From: Pseudomonas cannabina
GTDB taxonomy: Bacteria > Pseudomonadota > Gammaproteobacteria > Pseudomonadales > Pseudomonadaceae
Assembly: GCF_900100365.1 (NCBI RefSeq)
Contig: NZ_FNKU01000001.1
Span: forward strand, 2,976,001 to 3,040,000
Direction of reading: 5' to 3'
DNA length: 64,000 nt
This document shows, one piece after another, positions 38,774 to 63,715 of the stretch; positions within the stretch are counted from its first letter, which is position 1, and each line of letters starts with the position of its first letter. A program made the position numbers and the translations under genes. A model generated the notes under the pieces. The model was not told the DNA's origin. It worked only from the letters and a program-made list of their open reading frames with translations, and did not search any database.

Positions 38774-39498
38774 TTATTTACGCTGCTTTAGCGCGGTCTT
38801 GACTGTAGTCGATGTCATCGCCGTTGTCTGCGTGGCAACCGGTGTAGATTTTACAGCGACTGTGCCCGGCACCATCGCCAAAGGCCGTTTGGCCTCGATG
38901 AAGGTCCTGCTCCAGTAGGCGTCATCGAGGCTGTCGATGCGCACCCCGCCACTGCGGCGACTGCTGGAGTGAATGAACTGCTGGTTACCGGCGTAAATTG
39001 CCGCGTGGCTTACCACGCTGCTCTTGCCACGAGTGCTGAAGAACAGCAGATCGCCAGGCTTGAGGTTGTTGCGTGAAACCAGCGGAGCGTCGACGTTGAT
39101 CATTTCGCGCGTGGAGCGCGGCAGGCTCATGCCGGCCTCTTCACGGAACAGGTAACGATGAAACCGCTGCAATCGAAGCCTGACGACGTGGACGTGCCGC
39201 CGAACTTGTAGCGAGTACCGATCAGTGACTTGCCACGTTCGAGGATGCTGTCGGCCAGAACCGGCAGTTTGTAGGATTTGTTATCAGCGAACTGGGCCAG
39301 CTCATCTTCAGTGGCCATCTCGTCCTGCAGAGCTGCGGCATCGGCGCGGCGGGCTGCGGACTGTGCGGTGACCGTGTTCTGATAACGCGGAACCGGCTGG
39401 GCCTGTTCTTGCTGTGCAACCGGCATATTGGCCGAGCAACCGAACAGAAAGGTGACGAGTGCGAGGGGCACGAGGGGTGCGAAGCGAACAACTTGCAT
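38774..39498 (-). pseudogene. NlpC/P60-family lipoprotein gene, frameshifted
   Basis: Two overlapping frames together give one NlpC/P60 lipoprotein of about 240 aa. The first (from 39498) has the signal and lipobox (ALVTFLFGCSAN), a linker and the start of the domain with catalytic Cys (SGFDCSGFI). The second continues YLFREEAGMSLPRSTREMIN, GDLLFFSTRGKS and SHAAIYAGNQQFIHSS to the stop. Comparison with the paralogue shows a single missing base near 39156 (ATCGTTACCTG where ATCGGTTACCTG is expected), just after the Cys. As written, the active site is split. A sequencing error is possible. The start lies 17 bp from a 440-bp octanucleotide array. Confidence 0.85.
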
Positions 39499-39515
39499 GG
39501 GCACAACCGTGGCTG

Positions 39516-39955
39516 ACTGTTAAACTGTTAAACTGTTAAACTGTTAAACTGTTAAACTGTTAAACTGTTAAACTGTTAAACTGTTAAACTGTTAAACTGT
39601 TAAACTGTTAAACTGTTAAACTGTTAAACTGTTAAACTGTTAAACTGTTAAACTGTTAAACTGTTAAACTGTTAAACTGTTAAACTGTTAAACTGTTAAA
39701 CTGTTAAACTGTTAAACTGTTAAACTGTTAAACTGTTAAACTGTTAAACTGTTAAACTGTTAAACTGTTAAACTGTTAAACTGTTAAACTGTTAAACTGT
39801 TAAACTGTTAAACTGTTAAACTGTTAAACTGTTAAACTGTTAAACTGTTAAACTGTTAAACTGTTAAACTGTTAAACTGTTAAACTGTTAAACTGTTAAA
39901 CTGTTAAACTGTTAAACTGTTAAACTGTTAAACTGTTAAACTGTTAAACTGTTAA
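39516..39955. repeat. 55 perfect tandem copies of an 8-bp unit (ACTGTTAA / TTAACAGT)
   Basis: The unit ACTGTTAA is repeated without interruption or mismatch for 440 bp, which is 55 copies. It fills nearly the whole space between the sirtuin gene stop (40005) and the frameshifted NlpC/P60 gene start (39498). All six frames across it meet stops, so it is not translated. On the minus strand the unit places TTAACA and TTTAAC hexamers 17 bp apart, resembling weak -35/-10 elements. Perfect identity means recent expansion or ongoing slippage; the copy number in an assembly may be unreliable. Confidence 0.97.
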
Positions 39956-40004
39956 GAAGTCGAGACTATGCCCGCAATGAAAGCGATTTGCAAATTCAAT
40001 CGAA

Positions 40005-40769
40005 CTAGATGTGACTTATGAGATCGGCCATGACATGTGCCGCGCGGCACTGCAGAAAAACGTCCATCTGCGCACTGTGGTCAGTTGGCTGCGGGTTGAT
40101 TTCTGCGGTGAACCCCCCGGAAACGCGGGTGCGAATGACCGGTTCATGGATATAAGGGAAGCTGGCGGTGGTGCCGATACTCAGCACTGCGTCATAGCCT
40201 ATAGCCAGCTGTTCATACAGTGTTTCCAGGGCCCTTTCAGGAAGCATTTCCTGAAAAAGAACGACGGGCGATCGCAAAACGCCACTACATACCCGGCATA
40301 ACGGCGGCAATGGACGCTGCAAGTGCTCGCTGAGCTGCGGATCTTGCGCACCACAGGACTGGCAGAACAGCGGCGCAAGTTGCCCGTGGATCTCGATCAG
40401 ACGCTCGGGCGGACTGCCCGCCGCGCGATGATAGCCATCGACATTCTGGGTCAGCACCCAGCACTCGGGTTTGAGGCGTTGCAACTGGGCAATTGCGTAG
40501 TGCGCAACGTTCGGCTCGCCGCCCAGGCAGGCCTTGCCCAGCTCGGCAATGTATTTCCAGCACAGCTCAGGATCGCGGCGCAGCATCGGCCCGGACAGAG
40601 CAACTTCGATAGGCAGCCCGTCATCGGTCTTGCCATTATAGAGCCCGCCCACGCCGCGATAGGTGGGTAACCCGGAGTCTGCGGACAGGCCTGCCCCGGT
40701 AATCACCAGAATCCGCTGTGCATGACGTAACGCTGCGGCGGTTTGCAGAACCAGCGCCTGATCTACCAC
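40005..40769 (-). CDS. Sir2-family NAD-dependent protein deacylase
   Basis: Sirtuins remove acyl groups from protein lysines with NAD. The 254-aa protein has the NAD motif VITGAGLSADSGLPTYRG, TQNVDGYH, the catalytic histidine in LIEIHGQLAPL, a zinc site (FCQSC then LCRVC) and VLSIGTTASFPYI. The start is GTG, inside the end of hda (7-bp overlap), which suggests co-transcription with hda. Acyl preference cannot be judged. It is unrelated to the cobalamin gene also called cobB. Confidence 0.94.
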   Translation of the reverse strand: MVDQALVLQTAAALRHAQRILVITGAGLSADSGLPTYRGVGGLYNGKTDDGLPIEVALSGPMLRRDPELCWKYIAELGKACLGGEPNVAHYAIAQLQRLKPECWVLTQNVDGYHRAAGSPPERLIEIHGQLAPLFCQSCGAQDPQLSEHLQRPLPPLCRVCSGVLRSPVVLFQEMLPERALETLYEQLAIGYDAVLSIGTTASFPYIHEPVIRTRVSGGFTAEINPQPTDHSAQMDVFLQCRAAHVMADLISHI

Positions 40770-41467
40770 CCAAGCGTCTCTTTAAGGAAGGGAATGGTCA
40801 GCTTGCGTTTTTCCTGGAGCGAGGCTTGATCGAGGCGCTCTAGCAGTTCGAACAACGCGCTCATGCTGCGCGTACCGCGCGTCAGGATGAAATGGCCTAC
40901 ATCATCGGTCAGGTGCAGGCCACGCCGTGAAGCACGCAATTGCAGCGCACGCAGCTTGTCCTCGTCGGACAGCCCGCGCATCTGGAACACCAGCGCCATG
41001 GTCAGTCGGGATTTGAGGTCAGGCAGTTTGACCGGCAGTTCGCGGGGCGACTTGGACGCTGCGATCAGCAGGCGACGGCCGCTGTCACGCAGGCGGTTGA
41101 AAAGGTGAAACAGGGCCTCTTCCCAGTCCGGCTTGCCGACCACGGCCTGAAGGTCGTCGAGACAGACCAGCTCGTACTGCTCCAGGTGGTCGAACAGCTC
41201 GATACCTTCATCGATGACTTCGGCCAGCGGCAGGTAAACCGCCGGTTCGCCCATCTGCTCGAAACGCAGGCAAGCAGCCTGCAGCAGGTGCGTGCGCCCT
41301 ACTCCGTCCTTGCCCCACAGGTAAATGAGGCTTTCCGTCCATCCGGCGTCGGCTTCGCACAGCCGCTCGACATAGCCGAGTGCAGCGGCGTTGGCGCCTG
41401 GATAGTAATTGACGAAAGTGGCGTCATCACGCAGACGCACACTCAGGGGCAGCTGAATCGGTTTCAT
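40763..41467 (-). CDS. hda: DnaA regulatory inactivator Hda
   Basis: Hda, with the DNA-loaded sliding clamp, stimulates ATP hydrolysis by DnaA and so prevents re-initiation of replication. The 234-aa protein begins MKPIQLPLSVRLRDDATFVN, with the clamp-binding QLPLSV motif, and has an AAA+ core: Walker A-like WGKDGVGRTHLLQA, Walker B LVCLDDLQAVVG and arginine-finger region. Arg replaces the Walker A Lys, which is normal for Hda. The start was set at this MKPIQL; the upstream frame is open but lacks support. Confidence 0.96.
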   Translation of the reverse strand: MKPIQLPLSVRLRDDATFVNYYPGANAAALGYVERLCEADAGWTESLIYLWGKDGVGRTHLLQAACLRFEQMGEPAVYLPLAEVIDEGIELFDHLEQYELVCLDDLQAVVGKPDWEEALFHLFNRLRDSGRRLLIAASKSPRELPVKLPDLKSRLTMALVFQMRGLSDEDKLRALQLRASRRGLHLTDDVGHFILTRGTRSMSALFELLERLDQASLQEKRKLTIPFLKETLGW

Positions 41468-41701
41468 GCTGACTAACGGCTCATGCAAACCGTCAAGGGC
41501 CTCTGTGTAAAGTGCACGAAGTTTATACCCGTGAGGCGGGTCGCACAATGCGACAGACCTCAAGCAAAATCAAAGGTTTGCGTCAGGACAGGTAAAGCGC
41601 GGACGGAGCAAGCCGGTTTGGCGCAGTGCATGCGCCCTTCCGGCGGACCTCCACACGGGGCTGTGCAGAGGCCTTTTGACGTGAAGCAACCGCTTGAATG
41701 G

Positions 41702-42814: not shown

Positions 42815-43891
42815 TTACCAGCGGAAATACAGTTGTGGCGCTGCGGCCGGAACAATCATCGGTGCCGGTGCCGGTGCCGGTGCCGGTGCCGAGGCATCGA
42901 CAGGCGCGACGGCTGGCGCAGTTGCAGCCGTTGCTTCAGCGGCAGGCACTTCCTGCAATCTGGCCAGCGCCATCTGCGAGCGTAGCTGATCGGCGCTGCC
43001 ACTGACGTCGAAGACCACCCGATCACCCTGTACAGAGCTCAGACGCACGCCGAACGGTTCGAGTAACTGCAGCAACTGCGCATATCGCTCCAGCGTCATG
43101 CCTTGCACCTGCACCAGCATGCCGGTCGAAGCACCCGGCTTGGCGACGAAGCGCGGCGCCAGGCGCTCGCTGACTGACAGCAGTACTGCATCGGCCAGCG
43201 CTTCGGAGGTTGCCCCGGTCGCGGCGCCCTGCTCACGCTGGTCGCCCAGCCACAGGCGCCATTTACCCTGCCACTGGCCGGCGTCTTCTCTGGCGTGCAC
43301 GGCGAGAATCGCGTCAGCGCCGTAGCGTTCGGACGCCGTCTTGAGCGGCGCAGGATCAGTGCCTTCAAGGGTCTTGGCGTTACCAATGCTTTGTTCGCTC
43401 AGGTCCGCCAGCGGCAGGCGCAAGGGCAGACCACGATGCTGCGCAGCACGTCGCAAGGGTTCGGCGGCTGCCTGACCGTCGCCGACCAGATTGACGCCTT
43501 CGACCGAGTCATTTAGCCACCAGCCGAGAATCGACGGACGATTGCTGCCCCAGATCGACAGCCCGGCGTCGCGCAACGCACGCTCGGTGGTCGCCGGATC
43601 GAAGTCCACCAGCAGGGTTTCCGGCGGACCGGCCTCATAGCCATACTGGCTGATGATTTGCTGCGGGTCTTTGCGCAACGCGGCAATCGCCGAACCCTGC
43701 GCAGCCTTGGCATCGCCGGTCAGGCGCAGCACCAGCGTTTCGACGGCGGCCTGGGTCGCGCGGGTGCGCTCATCGGGCGACTGGCCGCTGACGGGCTCGC
43801 GCACCTGGTAAAGATTGCTCACCGTTTCGGCAAGACCGGGAAGGCTGACCAGGGACAGACAGCCGACGAGAAGGATTCTGGAAAAACGCAT
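42815..43891 (-). CDS. DUF2066 secreted protein
   Basis: The 358-aa protein has a signal peptide (MRFSRILLVGCLSLVSLPGLA) and the DUF2066 body: LYQVREPVSGQSPDERT, VLRLTGDA, YGADAILAVHARE. It should be periplasmic; the family's function is unknown. Near the C-terminus a run of APAPAPAPAP comes from five copies of the hexamer GGTGCC (42861-42890, plus-strand reading), a possible in-frame length-variable tract. It is divergent from purM, a standard arrangement in pseudomonads. Confidence 0.92.
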   Translation of the reverse strand: MRFSRILLVGCLSLVSLPGLAETVSNLYQVREPVSGQSPDERTRATQAAVETLVLRLTGDAKAAQGSAIAALRKDPQQIISQYGYEAGPPETLLVDFDPATTERALRDAGLSIWGSNRPSILGWWLNDSVEGVNLVGDGQAAAEPLRRAAQHRGLPLRLPLADLSEQSIGNAKTLEGTDPAPLKTASERYGADAILAVHAREDAGQWQGKWRLWLGDQREQGAATGATSEALADAVLLSVSERLAPRFVAKPGASTGMLVQVQGMTLERYAQLLQLLEPFGVRLSSVQGDRVVFDVSGSADQLRSQMALARLQEVPAAEATAATAPAVAPVDASAPAPAPAPAPMIVPAAAPQLYFRW

Positions 43892-48810: not shown

Positions 48811-48852
48811 AGCTTCAAGCTTCAAGCTGCAAGCTGCAAGCTGCAAGCTGCA
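48811..48852. repeat. six tandem copies of a 7-bp unit between mazG and relA
   Basis: AGCTTCA twice, then AGCTGCA four times, without gaps. Reverse-complement runs (TTGCTTGCAGCTTG, ACTTGCAGCTGA) lie 30-60 bp further right, so the relA 3' transcript can form hairpins; this may act as its terminator region. Confidence 0.8.
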
Positions 48853-48917
48853 AGTCAAAGCGGGTTGCGGTGGCTTCTTGCTTGCAGCTTGCCGCTAGAA
48901 ACTTGCAGCTGACCCTC

Positions 48918-63435: not shown

Positions 63436-63715
63436 TCAACTATCGTGCGACGCTCTGCGTCGGTATGCCGTTCTGGACGCTTCAATTTACTAGGCTGTAC
63501 CGGCCTCTTCGCGAGCAAGCTCGCTCCCACAGGAGCTGCGTGTGCTTCAACTATCGTGCGACGCTCTGCGTCGGTATGCCGTTCTGGACGCTTCAATTTA
63601 CTGGGCTGTACCGGCCTCTTCGCGAGCAAGCTCGCTCCCACAGGAGCTGTGTGTGCTTCAACTATCGTGCGACGCTCTGCGTCGGCATGCCGTTCTGGAC
63701 GCTCCGCGTCCGATC
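63436..63715. repeat. 111-bp tandem repeat, two full copies and a partial third
   Basis: Units at 63436-63546 and 63547-63657 are nearly identical, and a third starts at 63658 and runs about 58 bp. Each has CAACTATCGTGCGACGCTCT, CGTTCTGGACGCTTCAATTT, GGCTGTACCGGCCTCTTCGC and CGAGCAAGCTCGCTCCCACA. A reverse member of the family (GTGACGCAGAGCGTCACGAA) lies just before (63380-63402) and after. The rest of the spacer from dctA to the kinase gene has no gene. Confidence 0.92.

Follow-up and report, generated by a model that had tools for sequence, protein, structure and literature searches.

An octamer array of 55 perfect copies in the predicted leader of an NlpC/P60 gene of Pseudomonas cannabina

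In Haemophilus influenzae, expression of hmw1A is reported to come mostly or wholly from the P2 promoter, and the repeats lie between P2 and P1 (PMC8262952). Higher repeat numbers go with lower expression and change the length of the 5′ UTR, through a mechanism that the authors leave open (PMC8262952). Up to 38 copies of a heptamer have been reported upstream of hmw2A (PMC2651432), and the hmw genes of two strains are described with an upstream octamer, GCATCATC, in 12–15 copies (PMC2651432, PMC8262952). VNTR typing of P. syringae pv. actinidiae yielded at most 18 units in 142 strains (PMC4532359, Table 4 of that study) and revealed genome sequences that miscount some loci. In P. syringae pv. 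tomato DC3000, VNTRs are described as constant under the treatments tested (PMC4133955). Arrays of the TAACTGA repeat reach 43 copies (PMC4679880). P. aeruginosa has two MepS homologues, PA1198 and PA1199, which are predicted outer-membrane lipoproteins, and its MepS-like proteins are degraded by LbcA-CtpA (PMC6050968). The PA1199 promoter is described as constitutive, and PA1198 expression as dropping in stationary phase (PMC12569750).

Here we analyze a 64,000-nucleotide stretch of the Pseudomonas cannabina genome (the window), in which a first-pass annotation had described an octamer array upstream of an NlpC/P60 lipoprotein gene and interpreted it as a contingency locus. The array is a real, extreme and lineage-specific VNTR of a predicted leader, of a kind already known. 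The perfect, slippage-prone repeat directly upstream of an NlpC/P60 gene stands as first described; its seat in the promoter does not.

Position of the array relative to a conserved promoter-like block

TRF run on the window reports a period of 8, 55.0 copies and 100% matches for the unit ACTGTTAA, which reads TTAACAGT on the minus strand, in agreement with the 55 perfect copies counted earlier (Table 1). By direct reading of the sequence, 17 bp separate the array from the minus-strand ATG, which begins with the A of position 39498. Neither ATG, GTG or TTG nor AGG occurs in the array when it is read on this strand, so that the array adds an untranslatable stretch. The doubled octamer has no second site in the genome (6,388,314 bases in 9 contigs, with 5,817,980 bases in the contig of the array and 8 to 184 kb in each of the other eight); its 54 overlapping two-copy matches all fall within the array. 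The length of the array is an outlier as well. A search for perfect arrays with units of 2–15 bp in another 2,568,314 bases of this genome (132 stretches, about 40%) gave one array of 166 bp and otherwise none longer than 41 bp. A literature search with some spellings of the unit returned, among the papers listed, no published account of the array.

The array had been thought to fill the promoter space. A promoter-like block, TTGCAA-N17-CATAGT (39965-39993), lies beyond its far side, with sigma-70 geometry and, by our count, a match to the E. coli consensus at 8 of 12 positions (4 of 6 in each hexamer). The longer element ATTTGCAAAT-N13-GGCATAGTC, which contains this block (window 39964-39995), has a single match in each of 50 Pseudomonas genomes out of 59, among them our own. 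The scan was run across the genus with ATTTGCAAAT-N(6-14)-GGCATAGTC and covered the element and its spacer, which was always 13; an exact match is absent in nine of the 59 genomes, and the reversed control pattern is found in none of them. ATTTGCAAAT itself is a perfect 10-bp palindrome and, besides providing a −35 element, may bind a regulator.

Position relative to the gene was examined in 80 loci, nearly all from named Pseudomonas genomes (the best 80 of 273 relatives, with the second piece of the gene as query; records very near our genome were possibly left out). A script found TTTGCAAAT-N13-GGCATA, then 23–26 nt, then CACGGTYGTG upstream of the gene in 78 of the 80 loci, with one- or two-letter variants allowed in GGCATA; L018 and L022 missed the pattern by one letter, and their leader is 24 nt by eye. 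The block-to-start-region distance is 455 nt (11 + 440 + 4) in our strain versus 23–26 nt in the relatives, which makes the predicted untranslated leader about 16-fold longer. The array thus appears to lie between the predicted transcription start (near 39958) and the start codon, and because the conserved promoter-like block sits upstream of it, it would lengthen the leader.

We also considered a promoter within the array and rejected it as the main reading: a simple promoter scan of 39400-40150, which missed the conserved block as well, found no sigma-70-like site on either strand, and the conserved block is outside the array. The first-pass annotation had further suggested that the minus strand of the array could act as a ladder of overlapping weak promoters. 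The TTTAAC hexamer of that proposal lacks the A at position 2 and the T at position 6 that the scan requires, and no minus-strand stretch of the array matches the extended −10 pattern TGNTANNNT. Against the alternative of a binding ladder speaks the distribution of the octamer, which belongs to a variable portion of the leader and occurs in just 11 of the 80 loci.

Table 1. Features of the array locus, with window coordinates.
Feature	Position	Strand	Remarks
Hda	40763-41563	minus	upstream of the Sir2 gene
Sir2-family NAD-dependent deacylase gene	40005-40769	minus	upstream neighbour of the array
Promoter-like −35 hexamer TTGCAA	39988-39993	minus	within conserved palindrome ATTTGCAAAT, 39986-39995
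Promoter-like −10 hexamer CATAGT	39965-39970	minus	17 bp from the −35 hexamer
Predicted transcription start	39957-39959	minus	placed by position, about 7 bp after the −10 hexamer
Octamer array	39516-39955	minus	TTAACAGT in 55 perfect copies, read as ACTGTTAA on the plus strand; inside the predicted transcribed leader
Leader remnant, array to start codon, CAGCCACGGTTGTGCCC	39499-39515	minus	identical to L009 (P. syringae pv. cilantro)
NlpC/P60 lipoprotein gene, first piece	39127-39498	minus	ATG to premature stop past the frameshift near 39157
NlpC/P60 gene, second piece	38774-39172	minus	other frame; most of the NlpC/P60 domain; 132 aa
Second NlpC/P60 gene	38134-38685	minus	open; directly downstream of the split gene

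The split NlpC/P60 gene

The gene that follows the array is an NlpC/P60 gene as annotated, but in this assembly two different frames share it. One of 125 aa (39127-39504) and one of 132 aa (38774-39172) carry the two ends of one NlpC/P60 domain; PF00877 matches both pieces, the first with a score under its cut-off. A search of the genome for the family gave five matches in four places, the split gene accounting for two of the five. The N-terminus of the putative lipoprotein reads ...LVTFLFGCS (compared by eye with the lipobox pattern). In all 80 relatives the frame that starts at the corresponding ATG stays open for more than 180 aa, whereas the frame of the window gene is broken.

The closest relative fetched is L009, P. 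syringae pv. cilantro, which aligns with the window in three segments around the locus at 94.7–96.5% nucleotide identity and matches both flanks of the array. Its protein has MepS as the best PDB match (8xud, E 2.1e-25) and scores 101.2 bits against the NCBIfam equivalog for E. coli-type MepS (NF008096), under the cut-off of 186; among its relatives, the best 120 of 1879 all carry PF00877. The split gene is a putative MepS-like NlpC/P60 gene.

We compared the window with 77 kb of the L009 genome, merged into one stretch, and considered 57 long ORFs. Ten clusters of length difference fall inside these ORFs, seven of them not a multiple of three, and the difference at 39157 is the only one of the seven that splits a window frame in the middle. 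The other frame-changing differences lie at most about 125 bp from an end of the window frame or just past it; at one of them, near 61.6 kb, the C-terminal end differs (467 versus 543 codons, stop to stop). On both sides of the break the split gene differs from L009 by 14 synonymous codons and 1 nonsynonymous codon, compared with 27 and 9 in the Sir2 gene and 31 and 3 in the second NlpC/P60 gene. These counts suggest purifying selection on both pieces, and because of them the gene was probably selected until very recently, or still is if the frameshift is a sequencing error.

Several other repeats lie in the window and elsewhere in the genome. Within a 385-aa ORF, CGGTGC is repeated 5.3 times (42860-42891), and since the L009 copy is 21 bp net longer, this in-frame repeat differs between close relatives. 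The window also holds a 111-bp unit present 2.4 times with 98% matches (63436-63703) and the 7-bp repeat AGCTGCA in 6.3 copies (48811-48854). A second long perfect octamer array of this genome, 20.8 copies of TCACAACC (L174:14989-15154, on the 48,472-base contig C5), is followed after about 80 bp by two ORFs, a small one and one that is ParA-like by eye, neither with a Pfam match; this array may be a further VNTR or else a partition site.

Origin of the array and possible effects on expression

The relatives indicate where the array came from. Among the 80 loci, TTAACAGT occurs once in 11, is absent in 69 and occurs twice in none (the leader of L043 lay beyond the stretch scanned for copies and was covered by the leader-length script), so that the search for further arrays at this locus, which the first-pass annotation had suggested, found no second example. 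In L009 the leader is the same except that TTAACAGT stands in it exactly once. Our genome is the only one with at least three octamer copies anywhere (1 of 149 genomes), with the promoter end followed by two octamer copies at up to one mismatch (1 of 398) and with two octamer copies anywhere (1 of 57); these sets overlap, and each species is represented in them by one genome. A mobile or viral origin of the octamer was considered as well: one IMG/VR contig carries three copies, around which about 110 bases were inspected. Since the relatives have leaders of 23–26 nt, L009 has one TTAACAGT and no locus has two, the locus reads as a lineage-specific expansion within the predicted leader, and growth from a single copy in the lineage of our strain is the simplest reading. 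Replication slippage is the usual mechanism for such arrays.

MutS acts on small loops. We looked for signs of a mutator genome, but mutS and mutL are both open, so that the strain is no obvious mutator, weak as this evidence is; an 8-bp unit can evidently expand to 55 copies despite open mutS and mutL. A special hairpin as the driver of expansion was also rejected. The 481-nt leader RNA is predicted to fold into a long imperfect hairpin of three-pair steps at −100 kcal/mol, with z of −10.7 against 100 shuffles, which remove the periodicity; compared with 140 octamers of the same composition, the unit ranks an ordinary 73 as RNA and an only somewhat favourable 36 as DNA. A known RNA element was likewise discarded: with E values up to 1, Rfam gave 29 matches, every one of which overlaps the array and falls far under its gathering score, and they are taken as chance matches to a hairpin.

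On balance, and with some reserve, we favour a slippage-grown leader VNTR that would at most damp expression in a graded way and would not act as an on/off switch. We infer that one TTAACAGT in a leader of 23–26 nt was duplicated by replication slippage and then expanded to about 55 copies. Because the promoter-like block and the last 17 bp match the closest relative fetched, initiation should be near normal. The message would gain about 430 untranslated nucleotides, which lack a start codon and are predicted to form a long imperfect hairpin. Predicted openness near the AUG is 0.52 for a single copy and 0.51 for any number from 2 to 55, and because it is so constant across copy numbers, folding predicts no effect on translation initiation. 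The additional 430 nt may still act by way of termination or decay; the longer untranslated RNA would then undergo more early termination or decay, and both the existence and the sign of such graded damping are presumptive. Since the gene is frameshifted, its expression is perhaps irrelevant in our own strain, and because the enzyme gene reads as broken, a deliberate on/off switch is at most hypothetical.

That the array is instead debris of a newly lost gene, with a real frameshift in a dispensable endopeptidase and a leader thereby free to expand, is unlikely but not negligibly so. The mid-frame break at 39157, alone of its kind among the seven frame-changing differences, the otherwise nearly constant leader length of the 80 loci and the adjoining open NlpC/P60 paralogue fit such a loss. 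A single sequencing error would account equally well for the frameshift, however, and because only one nonsynonymous codon stands against 14 synonymous ones, any loss would be very recent.

We regard as improbable the contingency locus proposed at first, in which frequent and selected changes of copy number would vary the level of a peptidoglycan endopeptidase. Its attraction is that a perfect long array in a predicted leader is placed much as the hmw1A repeats are, in front of a gene under apparent purifying selection until recently, and that P. syringae VNTRs of 6–9 bp are reported to differ between strains (PMC4532359). The frameshift in the assembly and the absence of the array from the other genomes searched make this account less likely; no locus among the 80 has more than one copy, so that the array is not maintained across species. 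The constancy of the DC3000 VNTRs in the reported stress experiment (PMC4133955) argues against presuming rapid change.

An assembly artefact, with fewer than 55 copies in the real array or with an array that was assembled wrongly, is quite improbable. There is precedent in the ICMP 9855 genome, where 36 and 52 units stand for 10 and 14 confirmed by Sanger sequencing (PMC4532359, Table 5 of that study), and 55 copies far exceed the maximum of 18 units in the 142 P. syringae pv. actinidiae strains. Most other miscounts given there are too low, though, such as 7 for 17 (PMC4532359). The array, at 440 bp, is short relative to long reads, both of its flanks match L009, and the contig set, one of 5.82 Mb and eight small ones, resembles the chromosome and plasmids that a long-read assembly would give.

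It is very unlikely that the array serves as a leader-length rheostat, in which rapid octamer copy change would tune the MepS-like endopeptidase and be joined by antisense transcription into the Sir2 gene. Scarcely credible is an antisense promoter array or protein-binding ladder, with an extended −10-like TGTTAAACT per copy on the plus strand directed toward the 3′ end of the Sir2 gene: 54 of the 67 plus-strand TGNTANNNT matches in the whole window lie in the array, as against 0 on its minus strand, and would make a possible set of antisense extended −10 elements pointing away from the NlpC/P60 gene, but this is a motif match only, at a place where the promoter scan was negative on both strands and the octamer is unconserved (11 of 80 loci).

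The leader VNTR that we favour amounts to a clean natural experiment, with promoter spacing and leader length near-constant in 80 loci, 55 copies in one strain and both conserved ends kept as in the closest relative fetched. This makes the effect of pure leader length on expression directly measurable. Should the gene be functional and the copy number change, the locus would be, to our knowledge, the first copy-number dial known for a peptidoglycan endopeptidase. If not, the locus is a caution against treating every long microsatellite as a switch.

Comparison with known repeat loci

Many of the MLVA loci of P. syringae resemble the array in having units of 6–9 bp, and they are mostly intergenic and strain-variable (PMC4532359, PMC4133955). 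It is unlike the 13 typed loci in its neighbours, as none of those named in Table 3 of that study is NlpC/P60 or Sir2, some loci being listed there with no named neighbour (PMC4532359). The TAACTGA repeats of Beggiatoaceae, cyanobacteria and Bacteroidetes are likewise short A+T-rich direct repeats, many of them immediately upstream of start codons (PMC4679880). In the main species each genome is described with many such loci, and the repeats are proposed as binding sites (PMC4679880), whereas the window has a single locus and another unit.

In gene content the locus recalls PA1198 and PA1199 (PMC6050968), with two MepS-like NlpC/P60 genes in each case, a likeness of kind; unlike those genes, one window copy is frameshifted. 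By analogy, hmw1A of Haemophilus influenzae appears to be the nearest known arrangement (PMC8262952). The hmw1A and hmw2A repeats are described as intact adhesin genes' repeats that vary in copy number and recur across strains (PMC8262952, PMC2651432), in contrast to one genome, 55 copies and a broken gene here. What the window locus shares with them is a perfect short-unit array between a promoter, here a predicted one, and the start codon, where in the window it would alter the length of the 5′ UTR.
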